Assembly (NCBI RefSeq): GCF_021298855.1
Contig: NZ_JAJTHI010000003.1
Location: 1 to 32,355 of the forward strand
Source: Gemmatimonas sp.
Lineage (GTDB): Bacteria; Gemmatimonadota; Gemmatimonadetes; Gemmatimonadales; Gemmatimonadaceae
Reading direction: 5' to 3'
Length of the DNA stretch: 32,355 nucleotides
In this document: positions 5,429-15,124 of the stretch, in pieces
How the letters are laid out: the number at the start of each line of letters is the position of its first letter
Position numbering within the stretch: position 1 is the stretch's first letter
Translations under genes and position numbers: made by a program
The notes under the pieces: generated by a model
Database searches by the model: none
What the model saw: only the letters and a program-made list of their open reading frames with translations
Told to the model about the DNA's origin: nothing

Positions 5429-5495
5429 CGGCGGGCGCGGGTGACCCGTGGCGAAACATGGGCTGTCAGGGGGGCAGAATGGGGGCTCAGTGATA

Positions 5496-5524
5496 TTGAC
5501 GTCTCACTACGGATAGGCTAGGCT
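5496..5524 (+). promoter_or_regulatory. Sigma-70-type promoter of the metal operon
   Basis: TTGACG at 5496-5501 and TAGGCT at 5519-5524 are separated by 17 bases, the ideal spacing. It is the best -35/-10 pair in the window. Transcription would start near 5531, at the edge of the inverted repeat at 5532-5550, leaving a leader of about 45 bases with GAGG at 5568-5571, 5 bases before the ATG at 5577. Confidence 0.6.
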
Positions 5525-5531
5525 TGCCTCT

Positions 5532-5550
5532 GTTGAGAAGGTCAACTCAA
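5532..5550. promoter_or_regulatory. Operator-like inverted repeat at the metal operon start site
   Basis: The 15-bp inverted repeat GTTGA-N5-TCAAC (5532-5546) overlaps a second pair, TTGAG (5533-5537) and CTCAA (5546-5550). It covers the predicted transcription start, a typical repressor position. The core TTGA-N5-TCAA recurs at 10204-10216 just after the operon. Given the gene content a zinc-responsive repressor is a natural guess, but the sequence does not match a Zur box I know. Confidence 0.5.
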
Positions 5551-5576
5551 TAGCAACCCTGCTTTCCGAGGCCCTT

Positions 5577-6866
5577 ATGCACGCCGTCCCCGTTCGTCCA
5601 ATCAATGCCGACCCCGTTTCGCGCGCGTCCCGCGGTCTCCTGACCGCTGGTGTCGTCCTGCTCGCTGCCTGCGGTGAAGACGCCCCCACCGCCGGTAATG
5701 CCACCGCCGAGGCGACCGAATTCCGCCGTCTGGTGGTCACCGATACGGCACCCTTTGCCCGGGTATTCGACGTGGCGACGGCGCAGCGCGTGGACAGCAT
5801 GGGCGGCCTGCCCTCGCGTGTGACGTACCTCTACACGGCGCGGGGGCGCATCGCCTTTGCGCACTTCCAGACGCGCAATCAGGTCTCGTTCATCGACGGC
5901 GGCGTCTTCGAACAGGCGGGCCGCGGCGTGAAGCAGGCGCCCCGCATCGTGGGCAGCTTCAGCGACCAGACGCCCATTCATGGCAACTTCAACGGCGACA
6001 TGGTGTCGGTGCACTTCGATGGCTCCGGCAACGTGCGCTTCTGGAGCGAACAGGGGGTAGCGGCGGGCAACACGCAGCCGGTGCTCACCGTGCGCACGGG
6101 CAACGCGCATCATGGGGCCGGCATGTCCAACGTGGACGGCGGCTTCGTGTCGGCCTCCATTCAGGATCCGGCCAACCCGGTGCTCCCGAACGGGGTGGTC
6201 GTGTTCAACCGCCAGGGGCAGGAAGTGGCACGCAACACCAGCTGCCCGGGGCTCCATGGCCTCGCCGGCAACGCCGTGGGCAAGCTGTATGGCTGCGCCG
6301 ACGGCGCGCTGCTGGTGACCACCACCGGCAACACCGTCAACTTCCAGAAGCTCGCGCACGCCACCGACCCGCGCTTTGGCGTGGGCACCGTATGGGCGCG
6401 CGAAGGCCAGCCCAACTTCCTGGTGCGCATGGCCATTCGCGGGCAGCCGGTGAGCCCCGCCACGCGCACGCTCGGCGTGACCAACGTAGCCACCCGCACC
6501 ATGCAGCCCGTGTCGATGCCCGCCAATGAAATCGACTGGACCGCCGAGGTCGATTACACGGGCCGTTTCGCGCTCGTGCTGGGGCGCCTCGGCAACCTGC
6601 ACGTGCTGGACATGACGACCCGTCAGGTGACCGGGACGCTGGCCGGTGTCGTGCCGCCGATGCCCACGGCGGGTGCCGTGCTCACGCCGTTCTTCGCCTT
6701 TGCGCAGGGGGTGGCGTACATGACGAGCCCCACGCAGGGACGCGTGTATGAGATTGCCATCTCCGCCACGGGTACCCCGTCGCTCAGCCGCACCATGAAT
6801 GTGGGTGGCACCCCCGAGCGCATCGCCGTGCTCGGCGTGCGTGAGAACCGTACGCTGCAGCGCTGA
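5577..6866 (+). CDS. AztD-like metallochaperone lipoprotein (beta-propeller)
   Basis: A 429-residue secreted lipoprotein: the hydrophobic N-terminus ends in a lipobox with C32 (VVLLAAC). The rest looks like a seven-bladed propeller, with recurring strands such as RVFDVATAQRV and LHVLDMTTRQV. It resembles AztD, a periplasmic chaperone that hands zinc to an ABC-transporter binding protein, especially in the block CPGLHGLAGN followed by YGCADGALL and in scattered His residues (IHGNF, VHFDG, AHHGAG) that could bind metal. Known AztD proteins are soluble; here a lipid anchor is predicted. It is the first gene of a four-gene operon, with a promoter at 5496-5524 and a GAGG ribosome site. Its stop overlaps the next start (TGATG). 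Family assignment is by motif resemblance; metal specificity is inferred. Confidence 0.72.
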   Translation: MHAVPVRPINADPVSRASRGLLTAGVVLLAACGEDAPTAGNATAEATEFRRLVVTDTAPFARVFDVATAQRVDSMGGLPSRVTYLYTARGRIAFAHFQTRNQVSFIDGGVFEQAGRGVKQAPRIVGSFSDQTPIHGNFNGDMVSVHFDGSGNVRFWSEQGVAAGNTQPVLTVRTGNAHHGAGMSNVDGGFVSASIQDPANPVLPNGVVVFNRQGQEVARNTSCPGLHGLAGNAVGKLYGCADGALLVTTTGNTVNFQKLAHATDPRFGVGTVWAREGQPNFLVRMAIRGQPVSPATRTLGVTNVATRTMQPVSMPANEIDWTAEVDYTGRFALVLGRLGNLHVLDMTTRQVTGTLAGVVPPMPTAGAVLTPFFAFAQGVAYMTSPTQGRVYEIAISATGTPSLSRTMNVGGTPERIAVLGVRENRTLQR

Positions 6867-9148
6867 TGCCGCAGTTCCGGTCACGGCTCGCGCCGTGGCA
6901 GCAGTGCACCGTGGCGGTCGTCGTGGCGTTCTGCCCGGCGGCCGCCACGGCGCAGTTGCAGCCGCCCAAGTCCCGCGCCGATTCGCTGCGCGCTGATTCA
7001 CTGCGCGCGGATTCGCTGCGGGCGGCCGCTCGGGTGCGCGGGGCGGGCGCGGCCCAGCAGTTGGGGACCGTACGCGTCACGGCCACTCAGGGCAGCGGCA
7101 TTGGTCTGGTGCGCCCCACCACCGCGCTCGAGGGGCGCGAGCTCGACCGGCGACGGGCGCCTTCCATTGCCGCCACAATTGCCGGTGAACCGGGGGTCAC
7201 CTCGCGCAGCAATGGGCCCATGGCCACGCAGCCGGTCATCCGCGGCCTCACGGGCGACCGTGTGCTGGTACTCGAGGACGGGCAGCGCACGGGAGACATT
7301 GCGACCACGGCCCCCGATCATGCCGTCACCATCGACCCCATGACGGCGCGTCGCGTGGAAGTCGTGCGCGGCCCCGCCGGCCTGCTCTTTGGCAGCAACA
7401 GTCTTGGTGGCGTGGTGAATGTCGTCCGTGACGATGTCCCCACGGCGCGCGCGGCGCGTGCGCTGGGTGGGACATTCAGTGGCCAAGGTGAGTCGGTGAA
7501 CGACGGTGGCGTCCTGCACGGCCAGTTGCACGGTGGCACCGGTGCCCTCGCCTGGCGCGCCGGCGGCTCGTGGCGCACCGCCGGCGATACGCGCGCGCCG
7601 CGCGGCGTGCTCCCCTTCTCCGATGTGCGCGGGCACGACGCCGGTGCCGGCATTGGTCTGGTCGATCTGGTCACCGAACTCGGCACGTGGCGCGTGGGCG
7701 CGGCCGTGCGCGATGTGGCCAGCAGCTACGGCGTGCCGGGGAGCTTTGGCGGCGTGGTGCTGCCGGGGGCGCACGATGGTGGCGTGTACGTGGACTTGAG
7801 CCGGCGCAGCGTGCGCGGCGACGCCTCGTGGCGTGCCAATGACGCCGAGTCGCCAGCCCCGGCGCGCTGGTGGCCGCGATTCACGCAGGCCAATCTGTCG
7901 TCGCAGTTCGTGCGTTTCGAACAGTCCGAGCTCGAGCGTGGCGGCTTCGTGGGCACCCGCTTCGGGCAGCTGATGGCCAACGGGGATCTGCTGGTGCAGT
8001 ACACGCGACGCGCCGGCGTACCGGTGCGGGGCAGCGCGGGTGGCTGGGCGCAATGGCGCGACTTCCGGGCGACGGGCAGCTTCACCGGCACGCGTCCCGG
8101 CGTGCTGCGCGGGGCTGCGCTCTTTGCCATGGAAGAATGGGAACTCGACGCGCTCTTTGGCGGGCGGGCCGTGCGCCTGCAGTGGGGTGGACGCTGGGAT
8201 GCCACCAGCATCGTGCCGCTCGACAGCACGGAAACCGCGCTCGTGCGCGACGTGCGCACCCGTCGCTTCTCCGCACCCACCGGGAGCCTCGGGGCCACCG
8301 TGGCCCTGCGCCCGGGCTTCGTGCTGGGCATGAGCGCCACGCGCGCCTTTCGCCCACCCGCCATTGAAGAGCTCTTCTCTGCAGGGCCGCACCTTGCCAC
8401 CTACGCCTACGAAGTGGGCAATCCGCAATTGCGCGCCGAACGGGGATACGGACTGGATCTCTTCGCGCGTTTCCAACAGCGGCGCGTGAACGGCGAAGTC
8501 GCGGTCTTCAGCACCCGCCTGGCCGACTACATCTACCAGCGGCCGCTGGTGGACAGCATCACCGGCGCCCCCGTGCGCGATCGCCGGCTGCGCCGGTACA
8601 ACGTGTACCAGGCCGACCAGAGTGATGCGCGGCTGTACGGGGCCGAGGGGCGCGTCGTGATCACCGTGCCCCGCGTAACGGGTACGGTGCTCGATGCCAC
8701 GGTGTCGTGGGTGCAGGGCGATCAACGCGCCGGCCTGGCGTGGGCGCCATTGCCGGCCATGCCCCCGTTGCGTTCGCGGGTGCAGCTGCGCCGCGATGGC
8801 CGCGCGTGGAGCGTGTCGGCGGGCCTCGATGCGGCGCTGCGCCAGCGCCGGGTGCCACCGGCTCCCGCCACGATTGGTGCCGTGACCTGCGTGCTCTCCG
8901 CCTCGGAGGCGGTGCGTGGCGCCGGCGCGCCGTCGCTGCTGCCGGCCGAGTTCTGTCCCACCGATGGGTGGGTGCAGGGGCAGGCGAGCGTGTCGCGTCG
9001 CTGGCTGATGGGGCGGCAGCTGCACGAGATCACCACCGCGGTGGACAATCTCTTCAATACCGACTGGCGCGACCATCTCTGGCGCGCCAAGCAGGTGGCC
9101 CCGCAGCCGGGACGCAATCTCCGGCTGCTGTATCGCTGGAGCTGGTGA
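6866..9148 (+). CDS. TonB-dependent outer-membrane receptor, ZnuD-like
   Basis: A 760-residue outer-membrane receptor that should import a metal or metal complex using TonB energy. A signal peptide ends near AATAQ. Residues 37-51 are three exact RADSL repeats, followed by a probable TonB-interaction segment (GTVRVTATQ). The plug domain (about 80-190) contains QPVIRGLTGDRVLVLEDGQR, APDHAVTIDP and RVEVVRGPAGLLFGSNSLGG; the PDHA block is typical of the ZnuD/zinc-receptor branch. The 22-strand barrel fills the rest and ends YRWSW, with a terminal aromatic residue. The ATG overlaps the stop of the AztD-like gene, so the two are probably translationally coupled. The next gene starts directly after this stop. 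Receptor type is certain; zinc as substrate is inferred from the neighbour and the plug sequence. Confidence 0.88.
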   Translation: MPQFRSRLAPWQQCTVAVVVAFCPAAATAQLQPPKSRADSLRADSLRADSLRAAARVRGAGAAQQLGTVRVTATQGSGIGLVRPTTALEGRELDRRRAPSIAATIAGEPGVTSRSNGPMATQPVIRGLTGDRVLVLEDGQRTGDIATTAPDHAVTIDPMTARRVEVVRGPAGLLFGSNSLGGVVNVVRDDVPTARAARALGGTFSGQGESVNDGGVLHGQLHGGTGALAWRAGGSWRTAGDTRAPRGVLPFSDVRGHDAGAGIGLVDLVTELGTWRVGAAVRDVASSYGVPGSFGGVVLPGAHDGGVYVDLSRRSVRGDASWRANDAESPAPARWWPRFTQANLSSQFVRFEQSELERGGFVGTRFGQLMANGDLLVQYTRRAGVPVRGSAGGWAQWRDFRATGSFTGTRPGVLRGAALFAMEEWELDALFGGRAVRLQWGGRWDATSIVPLDSTETALVRDVRTRRFSAPTGSLGATVALRPGFVLGMSATRAFRPPAIEELFSAGPHLATYAYEVGNPQLRAERGYGLDLFARFQQRRVNGEVAVFSTRLADYIYQRPLVDSITGAPVRDRRLRRYNVYQADQSDARLYGAEGRVVITVPRVTGTVLDATVSWVQGDQRAGLAWAPLPAMPPLRSRVQLRRDGRAWSVSAGLDAALRQRRVPPAPATIGAVTCVLSASEAVRGAGAPSLLPAEFCPTDGWVQGQASVSRRWLMGRQLHEITTAVDNLFNTDWRDHLWRAKQVAPQPGRNLRLLYRWSW
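6974..7018 (+). repeat. Three 15-bp in-frame repeats encoding RADSL
   Basis: Three tandem 15-base units inside the receptor gene, each encoding Arg-Ala-Asp-Ser-Leu, lie between the signal peptide and the TonB-box region. The units differ at synonymous third positions (gcc/gct/gcg, tcg/tca), so the protein repeat has been kept while the DNA drifted. It probably forms a periplasmic spacer. Confidence 0.8.
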
Positions 9149-9610
9149 ATGGCCCGACTTCGTGCTGTCCTGATGCTGCTCGCGCTCGCCGGTCTGGCGG
9201 CCTGTGAACATCCCATCGCCGTGGTGACCCCCCACGCGGAGGTGGCCGACCTCGTGTTCACCGACTCCAGCAGCGCCGCGGTGGTCATGCGCACCACCGA
9301 CAATCGCGTGTGGAACGAGACGCCGCTCGTGCTCTGCGAGGGAGAGATGCGGACGCTGGTGCCGCAGGCGCTCGATTTCCGCGGCGTGCCGGTGGATCTC
9401 GTGTCGCGTCGCGATCTCGAGATTCGCGGCGAGAGTGTGGAGCCGAATGTGGTATGGGAGCCGCTGCGTGGTCGCGGTCGATTGATCGCGCTTGCACCGG
9501 GCACGACCCGCGTGCGCTTTCTCGTGTGGCACCTCACGCACGCCGACCTCGTGTCGCCGTGGCTCGAGGTGCGTGTCCAACCCAGGGCGGCGTGTCCGCG
9601 CCCCCGCTGA
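9149..9610 (+). CDS. Small lipoprotein of the metal operon, Ig-like fold suspected
   Basis: A 153-residue lipoprotein with lipobox LAAC at C19. I do not recognise a named family. The mature part is beta-rich, and features such as ALDFRGVPVDL, VEPNVVWEPL and LIALAPGTTRVRFLV resemble bacterial Ig-like (Big_2-type) domains, in which a value of the 'always true' kind ends with a G-T-T-x-V-x-F strand. It carries two Cys after the lipid Cys (in VLCEGE and RAACPRPR) and a WHLTHAD segment. The ATG follows the receptor stop directly (TGA-ATG), so it is co-translated in the operon. I infer a periplasmic or outer-membrane-anchored partner of the receptor. Confidence 0.7.
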   Translation: MARLRAVLMLLALAGLAACEHPIAVVTPHAEVADLVFTDSSSAAVVMRTTDNRVWNETPLVLCEGEMRTLVPQALDFRGVPVDLVSRRDLEIRGESVEPNVVWEPLRGRGRLIALAPGTTRVRFLVWHLTHADLVSPWLEVRVQPRAACPRPR

Positions 9611-9624
9611 CGATGGAGCTCATC

Positions 9625-10119
9625 ATGACCTGGGCCACCGCTCGCGTTCGCTGGACGCGTCGCGCCACTCTTCTTTCGCTCGGTATCGCGGTTGCCTGCG
9701 GCGGTGGCGGCGACATCGCCGCGCCACCACCGGCAGCCCCGCGCCTGCAGATCGCGAGCGTCCTGGTGGAAGATCCCGCCACCGGTACCGTGTACTTCTC
9801 GCATGACGACCACTGGCACGGATTCCCCACGGTAACCGCGGGTGCCCCTCGTCGCCTGCTCATGCACTTCGTGAAGCAGGGGCGCGCCCCCGACGACCAC
9901 GACATGCCGCCACGCAACGAGTGGTTCACCCTGGCGCCCCATGCCGACCACTCGCTGCCCGTGGTCATCGAGGACCCGACACGCGCACGGTGGGAAGGGG
10001 ACCGGCTGGGAGGCGCCCTCACCGGCCAGCAGGCCGGCGCGTCTCGGCTCAACATCCGGGTGTTTCGCGGGACGACCACGGTGTGGGAAGCACCGCCGCT
10101 CAACTTCATCGTGCGCTGA
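9625..10119 (+). CDS. His-rich lipoprotein of the metal operon
   Basis: A 164-residue secreted protein of no family I know. The N-terminus RRATLLSLGIAVAC ends at a probable lipid-bearing C25 (a relaxed lipobox), followed by a Gly/Pro linker. The mature domain holds a dense set of metal-type ligands: YFSHDDHWHG gives H60, D61, D62, H63 and H65, then H81, D90, D91, H92, H106 and H109. That is seven His in fifty residues, as expected of a Zn- or Cu-binding periplasmic protein. The ATG at 9625 is preferred because GGAG lies six bases upstream; an in-frame ATG at 9613 adds only MELI. It starts 14 bases after the previous stop and is the last gene of the operon. Its metal and partner are inferred, not shown. 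Confidence 0.75.
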   Translation: MTWATARVRWTRRATLLSLGIAVACGGGGDIAAPPPAAPRLQIASVLVEDPATGTVYFSHDDHWHGFPTVTAGAPRRLLMHFVKQGRAPDDHDMPPRNEWFTLAPHADHSLPVVIEDPTRARWEGDRLGGALTGQQAGASRLNIRVFRGTTTVWEAPPLNFIVR

Positions 10120-10199: not shown

Positions 10200-10220
10200 C
10201 ACATTGAAATTGTCAATGTG
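10200..10220. promoter_or_regulatory. Perfect inverted repeat after the metal operon
   Basis: CACATTG (10200-10206) and CAATGTG (10214-10220) form a perfect 7-bp inverted repeat around AAATTGT, and include TTGA-N5-TCAA, the same core as the operator-like site at 5532-5550. It lies in an AT-rich island (about 10185-10270), where a promoter for the downstream SPFH gene could be, though I cannot pick a convincing -35/-10 pair. There is no T-run after it, so a terminator is unlikely. The rest of the 377-base gap (10120-10496) shows no gene. Confidence 0.5.
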
Positions 10221-10496
10221 TGATGTCTGAAGAATCAATTATGGAAAAACATTGCGGATTTCTAACATTCCGGTCGAAGGGGAGTAGCGCCATGCGCGCC
10301 GCTGAGGGGCGGCTGCGCATGTTGCCGATTCGTCAACACTGCGCCAGCGAGAGCGCACGGATCGGTGAGTCGCCATGCAGAGGCGATGGGCGAGACCTTC
10401 GCGACCGCGGGATCGGTCGTGTCGCAAATGCGCACGACCCGAAGATCCCGCGGAATTCGCGGAGGACTCGCCCTTCGCACATCCGGATGTCTGACC

Positions 10497-12010: not shown

Positions 12011-15000
12011 ATGCTCCATCGATCGGCTGGGCGCACCCGTGTGCGACCGCGCATCGTTCGGGTGCTTGCGTGTCTGGCCGCAGCGCTGGTGTGGTTGCCG
12101 CTCCCACTCCACGCGCAGTACTTCGGACAGAATCGCGTGCGCTGGGAACGGTTCGACGTGCAGGTGCTGCGCACGGCGCACTTCGACATTCACTTCGACA
12201 AGGCCGCCGAGCCCACGGTGCGCGAAACGGCCCGCAAGGCGGAGCGGTGGTACGAGCGCCTGTCGTCGCTGCTCGGCCACACCTTCACCCAGCGCAAGCC
12301 GCTGGTGCTGTACACCAATCATCCCGACTTCCAGCAGACCACGCTGTCCGACACCCCGCTCAGCGAGGGGACGCGCGGGTTCGCCGAGTCGCTGCGTGAC
12401 CGGCTGGTCATGCCGCTTACCGGGGTGGGCGCCGAGAACGATCACGTGCTGGGGCACGAGATCGCGCACCTCTTCCAGTTCGACATGGCGCGGCAGGTGA
12501 AGGGCGGCAACGGCCTGATGCAGCTGCCGCTCTGGTTCGTGGAAGGGATGGCCGAGTACGTGTCGCTCGGAAGCGACGACCCCAATACCGCCATGTGGTT
12601 GCGCGCGGCGCTCGCCGCCGGCGAGTTGCCGGGCATCGATGCGCTCACCACCGATCCGCGCCTGTTCCCCTATCGCTACGGGCATGCCTTCTGGGCCTAT
12701 CTGGGTGGGCGCTTCGGCGACGATGCGCTGGCGGCATTCTTTCTGGACGCGGTGGCGGTGGGGGTGCGCGCCGGCATCGTGCGCACGCTGGGCGTGTCGG
12801 CGGAAGCGCTGGAGAACGACTGGCACGCGCACATTCTCGCGGCGTACGGCACACTCCTGGAGCAGCGTGAGAACATCGATGTCATTGGCACCGCGCTGAG
12901 CGCGGCGCCGGAGCGCGGCGGTTTCGCCCTCAACCCGCAGCTGAGCCCCGATGGGGCGTGGCTGACCTACATCGGCCGCGACGCGCTTGGTCAGGTGGAC
13001 GTGCGACTGCGCAACATGGCCACCGGGCGCGACGTGCGGTCCTTCGGGAACCTCGCCCGTGATGGCCACACCGATGCCATTGCCTTTCTGTACGCATCGG
13101 GGGCGTGGTCCCCGGACTCGCGTCAGTACGTCCTGGTGGTGACGCGCGCCGGCGATTCGGAGTTGGCCATTTTCGACGTCATGCGGGGGACGCTCCTGCA
13201 GCGCATTCGCGTGCCGGGGGTGCAATCCATCAGTGCCGTGTCCTGGTCGCCCGATGGACGGCAGCTGGCCATTGCCGGCACGAGCAACGGGCAGGGCGAC
13301 CTGTTCCTGTTCGACCTCGCCGAACGACGCACACAGCGGCTCACGAACGATGCCTTCACCGAGTTGCACCCGGCCTGGGCGCCGAACGGCCGGTACATTG
13401 CGGTCGCAACCGACCGGCACGCGGAAACCGACCTGGCAACGCTCGCGTATGGTCGGCTGCGACTGGCCCTGGTGGATCCGGTGGGCGGGCGCATGCGGGC
13501 GCTCCCCGACCTGGGCGCGGACGCGCGCATGATCAACCCCCAGTGGAGTGGCGACAGCCGTTCCCTGTATTTCATCGGTGACGTGGATGGTGTGGCCGAT
13601 GTGTTTCGTCTCGACCTGGCTCGCGGCGCGTTCGATCAGCTGACGCAGCTGCGCACGGGCGTGGCCGGCATCACGGCGCGTTCCCCGGCGCTCACGGTGT
13701 CACCGGCGACGAACACCGTGGTGGTCACCGTATTCGATCGCGATGGCTACCAGATGGTCGCGCTCGACCGGAGCCGGGTGGAGAGTTACCAGCGGCTGGC
13801 CGACGACGAAGTGGCGCTGACCGCGCCGATCATGCAGAGTGGCGGGGGCATCCTGCCGCCGCACACGGAATCTCCGGTGCCCATCGTGGACGCCATGCTG
13901 GCCGATGGCGTGAGCGGATTGCCGGGGCCCACGGCGGGCGCGGCCACGGTCGCCCGCTACCGGCCGCGCTTTGGCCTCGAGGGACTGGGGCTCCCGGCGG
14001 CCGGTGTGGCGGCCGGCTCGAACGGCGCCGCCGTGGGCGGTGGCCTGAGTGTGTTCTGGGGAGACCTGCTGGGACGCCGGCGGCTGGGCATTGCGGTCCA
14101 GGCCCAGGGACGCGTGCAGGACGTGGGCGGGCAGGTGCTGTACGTGAATGCCGTCTCGCGGTGGAACGTATTTGCTACGCTGGGTCGCACCCCGCTGCCC
14201 GCTGCGTTCAACAGCGTGGCGCCGATCCGTGTGCGGGATGCCTCGGGGAACCTGCGCGACGCCACGCTGGTGGAGCAGGGGATCGCGCGTACCCTGGTGC
14301 ACGAGGGGACACTGGGCGCGCAGTACCCGTTCTCGCGTACCCGACGCGTGGAGTTTGCCTTCACGGGCACACGGCTCACGCAGGACTTCGACGTGACCCA
14401 GCAGGTGGTGGACAACGTCACCGGGCGCGTGCTCGACCGGCGTCGCTCGACGGGGAGTGCCGGTGAGGCAATCCAGTACGCCCAGTCGAGTGCGGCCTTC
14501 GTGGGGGACAACGCGGTGTTCGGTCCGGCCTCACCACTCGATGGCTGGCGCTACCGCGCCGAAGTACAGCAGACGGTGGGGCGCACGCAATTCACCGGGG
14601 TGACGGTCGATGGGCGATGGTACCAGCCGCTCTGGCGTGGCGCGCTGGCCTTCCGGGCCATGCACACGGGGCGCTACGGCCGTGACGACAGCCAGGCATT
14701 GCTCGCCCCCATGTTCGTGGGCGCGGGCACGCTGGTGCGCGGCTATGCGGCCGAATCGCTGGCGGAGCGCGAGTGCGGCCGGTCGGCGTTCGGGCCGTGT
14801 CCCTCGTTCGATGGGCTGCTGGGATCGCGCATGGCGGTGGCGAACGTGGAGTACCGACTCCCCATCAACCGGCTGGGCGTTCGGGGGCTCGCCATGGAAG
14901 TGGCGCCATTCCTCGACGCCGGGATGGCGTGGCGGGGCGGCGATGCGCTGTCGCTGCGGCCGCGGGCGCTGCAGAACGCCGACGCGGTGCGGCGGCCGGT

Positions 15001-15124
15001 GCTGTCGCATGGGATCAGCACCCGCCTCAATCTCGGCGCGATCATCGTGGAGATGTTCCACGCGCGGCCCGTGCACCGCCGCGGTGGCGGGGTGTTCGGA
15101 CTGAATCTGGCACCGGGGTGGTGA
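12011..15124 (+). CDS. Peptidase/TolB-like propeller/Omp85-like barrel fusion protein
   Basis: A 1037-residue outer-membrane protein with three modules. After a signal peptide (PLHAQ), residues about 35-290 are a peptidase_MA-like zinc metalloprotease domain: HEIAH at 149-153, with the third ligand probably E178 in WFVEGMAEY. Residues about 305-560 are beta-propeller (PD40/TolB) repeats, for example WSPDGRQLAIAG and WAPNGRYIAVATDR. Residues about 640-1037 form a surface-antigen/BamA-like barrel, with VANVEYRLPINRLGVRGLAM, and end in Trp. AGAGG at 12000-12004, 6 bases before the ATG, supports the start. Such fusions are known in Gemmatimonadota and some other diderms but their substrate is unknown. 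A proteolytic domain fixed to an outer-membrane barrel suggests a role in envelope protein handling. Confidence 0.85.
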   Translation: MLHRSAGRTRVRPRIVRVLACLAAALVWLPLPLHAQYFGQNRVRWERFDVQVLRTAHFDIHFDKAAEPTVRETARKAERWYERLSSLLGHTFTQRKPLVLYTNHPDFQQTTLSDTPLSEGTRGFAESLRDRLVMPLTGVGAENDHVLGHEIAHLFQFDMARQVKGGNGLMQLPLWFVEGMAEYVSLGSDDPNTAMWLRAALAAGELPGIDALTTDPRLFPYRYGHAFWAYLGGRFGDDALAAFFLDAVAVGVRAGIVRTLGVSAEALENDWHAHILAAYGTLLEQRENIDVIGTALSAAPERGGFALNPQLSPDGAWLTYIGRDALGQVDVRLRNMATGRDVRSFGNLARDGHTDAIAFLYASGAWSPDSRQYVLVVTRAGDSELAIFDVMRGTLLQRIRVPGVQSISAVSWSPDGRQLAIAGTSNGQGDLFLFDLAERRTQRLTNDAFTELHPAWAPNGRYIAVATDRHAETDLATLAYGRLRLALVDPVGGRMRALPDLGADARMINPQWSGDSRSLYFIGDVDGVADVFRLDLARGAFDQLTQLRTGVAGITARSPALTVSPATNTVVVTVFDRDGYQMVALDRSRVESYQRLADDEVALTAPIMQSGGGILPPHTESPVPIVDAMLADGVSGLPGPTAGAATVARYRPRFGLEGLGLPAAGVAAGSNGAAVGGGLSVFWGDLLGRRRLGIAVQAQGRVQDVGGQVLYVNAVSRWNVFATLGRTPLPAAFNSVAPIRVRDASGNLRDATLVEQGIARTLVHEGTLGAQYPFSRTRRVEFAFTGTRLTQDFDVTQQVVDNVTGRVLDRRRSTGSAGEAIQYAQSSAAFVGDNAVFGPASPLDGWRYRAEVQQTVGRTQFTGVTVDGRWYQPLWRGALAFRAMHTGRYGRDDSQALLAPMFVGAGTLVRGYAAESLAERECGRSAFGPCPSFDGLLGSRMAVANVEYRLPINRLGVRGLAMEVAPFLDAGMAWRGGDALSLRPRALQNADAVRRPVLSHGISTRLNLGAIIVEMFHARPVHRRGGGVFGLNLAPGW

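Follow-up and report, generated by a model that had tools for sequence, protein, structure and literature searches.

In the window, the 32,355-nucleotide stretch of Gemmatimonas sp. DNA that was analyzed, four closely packed forward-strand genes encode an AztD-like β-propeller lipoprotein (5577..6866; recognized by profile, PDB and alignment matches), a ZnuD-like TonB-dependent receptor (6866..9148; profile, PDB and ligand matches) and two Ig-like lipoproteins, Lp3 (9149..9610) and Lp4 (9613..10119, with its start at 9613 or 9625), both recognized by alignment and predicted fold. The overlapping and abutting codons of the original prediction are confirmed in frame, strand and junction: the AztD-like gene and the receptor gene share TGATG (TGA at 6864-6866, ATG from 6866), receptor and Lp3 adjoin as TGA-ATG (9146-9151), and the Lp3 stop (TGA, 9608-9610) is followed by a Lp4 ATG at 9613, leaving a 2-base gap, or at 9625, the only start for which the predicted 14-base gap holds. 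The designation of all three soluble proteins as predicted lipoproteins also stands, the lipobox-type Cys being invariant in each of the three families. Purifying selection acts on all four genes, with dN/dS values of 0.05-0.30 in comparisons with four relatives. The neighbors of the operon encode a PBP1-type protein and a Band 7 protein, and the operon itself contains no ABC permease or ATPase of the ZnuABC or AztABCD type. In the space separating the operon from the Band 7 gene (at 10365), an inverted repeat, CACATTG-AAATTGT-CAATGTG, lies at 10200-10220; it may be an operator or a terminator. Farther downstream, 12011-15124 encodes a protein of 1037 residues whose N-terminal part resembles a peptidase and which also contains PD40 propeller repeats and an Omp85 barrel.

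These four genes constitute a real, conserved and co-inherited operon. Among 395 Gemmatimonadota genomes (presence called at E < about 1e-10), the AztD-like protein occurs in 18, Lp4 in 17 and both in 15. The corresponding Fisher p of about 2e-22 across these 395 genomes of the phylum overstates independence, because the genomes are related, yet six genera besides the window's own contribute to it. Gene order, which the original prediction had singled out as a check, is conserved: AztD-like, receptor, Lp3, Lp4 run unbroken on a single contig in 14 sampled genomes (8 of the own genus, together with G336, G202, G373, G144, G092 and G184), while a 15th, G288, has the operon in pieces at contig ends; together they represent as many as 7 genera and 2 families. 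The distribution is patchy, and the four-gene module is therefore optional. The single-contig genome G068 has receptor-Lp3-Lp4 without an AztD match, and in G191 and G326 the AztD gene has a different setting, without that receptor adjoining.

The single strong promoter that had been predicted survives in part: no consensus σ70 pair upstream of the operon passes the scan, but an element with a -35-like TTGAC, conserved in nine relatives, precedes the first gene. This promoter/operator-like element, TGATATTGACGTCTCACTA (5491..5509, forward strand), has the form GATATTGAC-N4-CANTA; a second operator-like element, TTGAGAAGGTCAACTCAATAG, at 5534..5554 on the same strand, emerges from the upstream-region alignment of nine relatives, in which it reads TTGATA...TCAATA. 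In searches that covered six genomes, and three genomes, GATATTGAC-N4-CANTA with at most one mismatch has a single occurrence in the own genome and one or two in each of five others; a looser pattern (three mismatches) occurs at 9 places in the own genome, versus 5 for the reversed control. Because the operator-like element is nearly unique to this operon, it reveals no regulon; it is plausibly a repressor site. The genome encodes two Fur-family proteins (L046 and L047). A Zur regulon defined by motif was considered and set aside, since the element marks almost solely this operon.

Remote AztD and ZnuD relatives

The first protein matches the NCBIfam AztD model (NF038015) over residues 55-418 (E 6.4e-29, under the curated cut-off of 400 bits) and the solved structures 6cmk (E 7.8e-12) and 6ck1 (E 2e-8). 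The second has a TonB-dependent plug and barrel (PF07715 and PF00593), and its best specific family is NCBIfam ZnuD (E 4e-44), at 151 bits against a curated cut-off of 950, with haem/transferrin models at 120 bits; it also matches PDB 4rdr (E 2e-34). Both scores lie well below the curated cut-offs, and the two proteins are therefore referred to as relatives of AztD and ZnuD and not as certified members of these families.

Paracoccus AztD has two zinc sites: site 1, formed in the pore by His124, His167 and His218, has a role that is stated as unclear, and site 2 (His99, His102, Asp104 and His408) is the sole site that passes zinc to AztC; zinc binding persists in a mutant deleted for site 2, at an affinity of about 0.5 nM (PMC6689063). 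The window protein retains the site-1 histidines (His135, His179 and His227) and the disulfide cysteine pair (Cys223 and Cys240). When 17 relatives are aligned to the two solved AztD chains, the three site-1 histidines are found in 17/17, as are both disulfide cysteines, and a complete site 2 is found in none. At site 2 the window protein reads GRV-, with no C-terminal His, and only G373 and G092 have a HDDHAH/HGDHAH loop. The method does not account for the loss of site 2, because identical treatment of plasmid-borne AztDs from Thermus, Deinococcus, Neorhizobium and Skermanella recovers the full HGHD. A second site-1-only lineage is represented by a Pseudoalteromonas AztD-like lipoprotein (NZ_CP022523.1, 6833-8146), which has a deletion of the site-2 loop.

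The ZnuA family (PF01297) is absent from 16 of the 19 genomes tested, including the window's own (99.5% complete), and is present in G373, G092 and G191 only; these are the two genomes with a HxDHAH site-2 loop and one with a partial loop. A strict rule tying ZnuA to site-2 histidines was dropped: L057, which has an offset VHGH loop and no ZnuA, breaks it, and the association is therefore stated as a tendency. Thus, of the "AztD-like chaperone" that had been proposed, the likeness holds, but the chaperone label is unearned, because the residues for transfer to AztC are gone and the genome has no protein of the ZnuA/AztC type. The protein resembles a natural site-2-deleted AztD in a genome without an AztC-type acceptor, and probably does not act as a chaperone of that kind. 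No ZIP protein was found in the own genome, and an ABC-3 match (L068) reaches 20 bits only.

The zinc ligands of ZnuD are Asp99, His100, Glu340 and His499 (PMC4557270). Three of them have counterparts in the receptor (D151 and H152 for D99/H100 in the plug, H509 for H499 in loop 6), and across 30 aligned receptors this plug Asp-His and loop-6 His do not vary. The motif in the plug reads PDH, in which an Asp adjoins the His just as it does in ZnuD, and loop 6, GPHLATYAYEVGN, corresponds to the ZnuD sequence GKHVATNTFEVGN; the Glu340 region falls outside the HMMER alignment and is not placed, and the barrel has conserved E355 and E357. The prediction of a ZnuD-like receptor is borne out by its best family and by the invariance of every alignable zinc ligand, and the choice of zinc by family resemblance is supported as the likeliest metal by the ZnuD and AztD matches together with these ligands. 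Haem receptors likewise have two distal histidines in these positions (PMC4557270), and the substrate is for that reason something that we infer.

Paired Ig-like histidine lipoproteins

Lp3 is defined by the invariants C19-x-H-P, H29, E31 and H128-x-x-H131-x-D133, the last forming a (W)HxxHxD cluster, and Lp4 by the H64-x-x-H67-W-H69-G triad and D95-H96. Both are modeled confidently as Ig-like sandwiches (mean pLDDT 85 and 89), for which Foldseek and VIA retrieve generic Ig-like domains only (Z up to 9.7 and 9.5). Neither belongs by sequence to a known family in Pfam, NCBIfam or the PDB; the PDB matches obtained with the Lp4 profile seem to be chains that start with histidine tags and were discarded, and Lp4 was not found on plasmids. 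Hence the "two undescribed lipoproteins" of the original prediction are indeed without a known family, but they are not two separate kinds: profile comparison places Lp3 and Lp4 in one homologous family (probability 97%, E 2.6e-11).

The HxxHxH motif of Lp4 is also the histidine triad of the zinc-binding streptococcal Pht proteins, of which PhtD is a surface zinc scavenger (PMC3842936). A search with PF04270 gives no match for the window's Lp4 and one at E 0.095 among 15 members; there being no convincing family match, the likeness is one of motif only and probably reflects convergence. A lipoprotein of G216 (L147; G216:C81, 5239-6531), with no ZnuD-like receptor in the 11 kb examined around it, is built from three Ig-like repeats in tandem, and HGDHWHG and WHDxHADW are present in every one of them. 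Since these repeats carry both motifs, both histidine sites can share one domain; Lp3 and Lp4 would then be complementary halves that followed a duplication.

Relatives of these lipoproteins extend beyond the four-gene operon. The Lp3 profile matches 46 genomes, and in 14 of 16 distant loci examined, from other families, a single Lp relative directly adjoins a ZnuD-like receptor. The common core therefore looks to be a receptor and one Ig-like histidine lipoprotein, to which AztD and the second lipoprotein look like additions made in the Gemmatimonadaceae and some relatives. The pairing of AztD with ZnuD has an independent case in the Gammaproteobacteria: on plasmid pCadTS8_2 of Catenovulum adriaticum, a ZnuD-like receptor (NCBIfam E 3e-101) is followed 50 bases on by an AztD-like lipoprotein (E 7e-29). 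No published account of a link between AztD and a TonB receptor was found in the searchable papers, and one may exist elsewhere.

At NZ_CP109967.1, 6827-8242 encodes an AztD-like, His-rich lipoprotein right behind a ZnuD-like receptor; its product name, 5-methyltetrahydrofolate-homocysteine methyltransferase, is probably wrong. In G326 (contig C20, 203-9402), an AztD-like gene split between frames is accompanied by two DUF3526 permeases, an ABC ATPase and a TonB receptor of a type other than ZnuD. A NosDFY-like scheme suggested by this arrangement was not adopted: it is found in one genome only, and its AztD is split over two frames.

Probable metal uptake and its alternatives

The reading that we prefer, with a probability of roughly 0.6, is that the operon specifies an outer-membrane uptake module for a metal, most likely zinc, composed of a receptor, two capture lipoproteins and a zinc-holding AztD-type propeller. 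The ZnuD-type receptor would bring zinc across the outer membrane; the two homologous Ig-like lipoproteins, with their different histidine clusters, would catch it on a lipid anchor near the receptor; the AztD-type propeller lipoprotein would be its receiver or reservoir, keeping it in the pore site with no hand-over to an ABC substrate-binding protein; and an inner-membrane importer would presumably take the onward step. The order of the genes, their families, the conserved ligands, the kinship of the two lipoproteins, the loss of AztD site 2 and the lack of ZnuA in the genome are seen in the sequences; zinc as the substrate, the side of the membrane, the direction of transfer and the relay itself are what we infer. 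The module reading is weakened by AztD and ZnuD family scores far below the NCBIfam cut-offs, by an operator-like element that points to no zinc-responsive regulon, by the histidines shared with haem receptors, and by G068, G191 and G326, in which AztD and the receptor do not stand together. A broader proposition can be put forward tentatively, at somewhat less than even odds: that Gemmatimonadota have a previously undescribed, ZnuABC-independent outer-membrane zinc system built from a ZnuD-type receptor and a dedicated family of Ig-like histidine lipoproteins, and that in the lineage of the window the lipoprotein was duplicated, its two histidine sites were split between the copies, and an AztD that had lost its transfer site was co-opted to hold zinc on a lipid anchor.

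The lipid anchors, the histidine clusters and the tight linkage to the receptor would also suit zinc handling at the cell surface, with outward-facing lipoproteins scavenging for the receptor in the manner of Pht proteins feeding AdcAII or of the surface partners of TonB receptors. PhtD offers the precedent of a surface scavenger with the same triad, and it is precisely the AztD site working with a periplasmic acceptor that has been lost. Inner and outer leaflet are, however, not told apart by any available Gemmatimonadota sequence rule, and Gram-negative AztD proteins are described as predominantly periplasmic (PMC6689063); we consider a surface role rather unlikely.

Uptake of haem or of another chelate, by a haem-type TonB receptor with HmuY-type lipoproteins for haem or metal chelates and a co-opted AztD-like propeller, is less probable still. 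Haem models do score close behind ZnuD, and for some relatives almost level with it (in L133, 191 bits versus 196), and plug and loop-6 histidines are, as noted above, common to haem receptors. Against this stand the ZnuD-like PDH plug motif and loop 6, the invariance of AztD zinc site 1, the presence in Lp4 of a known zinc motif and the recurrence of the ZnuD-like/AztD pair in Catenovulum. Sensing or buffering, in which the genes would answer metal excess and the lipoproteins would sequester metal, accords with the failure to find a ZnuABC- or ZIP-type inner-membrane importer but would be countered by a TonB-dependent importer in mid-operon, and is the least probable of all.

If the uptake module is real, TonB-dependent zinc uptake gains dedicated lipoprotein partners, and bacteria lacking ZnuABC or ZIP, this one among them, would be predicted to import zinc by another inner-membrane route. 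The module would also bear on a question of the AztD literature, the purpose of the universally conserved pore site 1: in this lineage, where site 1 is the sole zinc site retained and AztC is missing, the pore site can be examined in isolation.

Comparison with known systems

The AztD of AztABCD (Paracoccus denitrificans and Citrobacter koseri; 6ck1 and 6cmk) shares with the window protein full-length similarity, the pore-site histidines, the disulfide cysteines and export, whereas the window protein lacks site 2, has a lipobox, adjoins an outer-membrane receptor and comes from a genome without AztC or ZnuA. ZnuD of Neisseria meningitidis (4rdr) and the window receptor have in common the plug/barrel architecture, the plug-loop Asp-His and the loop-6 His; the receptor differs in its distance from the family (about 151 bits versus a cut-off of 950), in its accompaniment by dedicated lipoproteins and in a Glu340 that is not placed. 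Lp4 and the streptococcal polyhistidine triad proteins (PhtD, PF04270) share HxxHxH and a suggested handling of zinc outside the cytoplasm, but Lp4 has a different fold, an Ig-like sandwich, with one triad per domain. The Catenovulum adriaticum pCadTS8_2 pair comes close in setting a ZnuD-like receptor beside an AztD-like lipoprotein; there, in contrast, the receptor comes first, no Lp3/Lp4-like neighbor is annotated, and the AztD is His-rich and has site-2 histidines.
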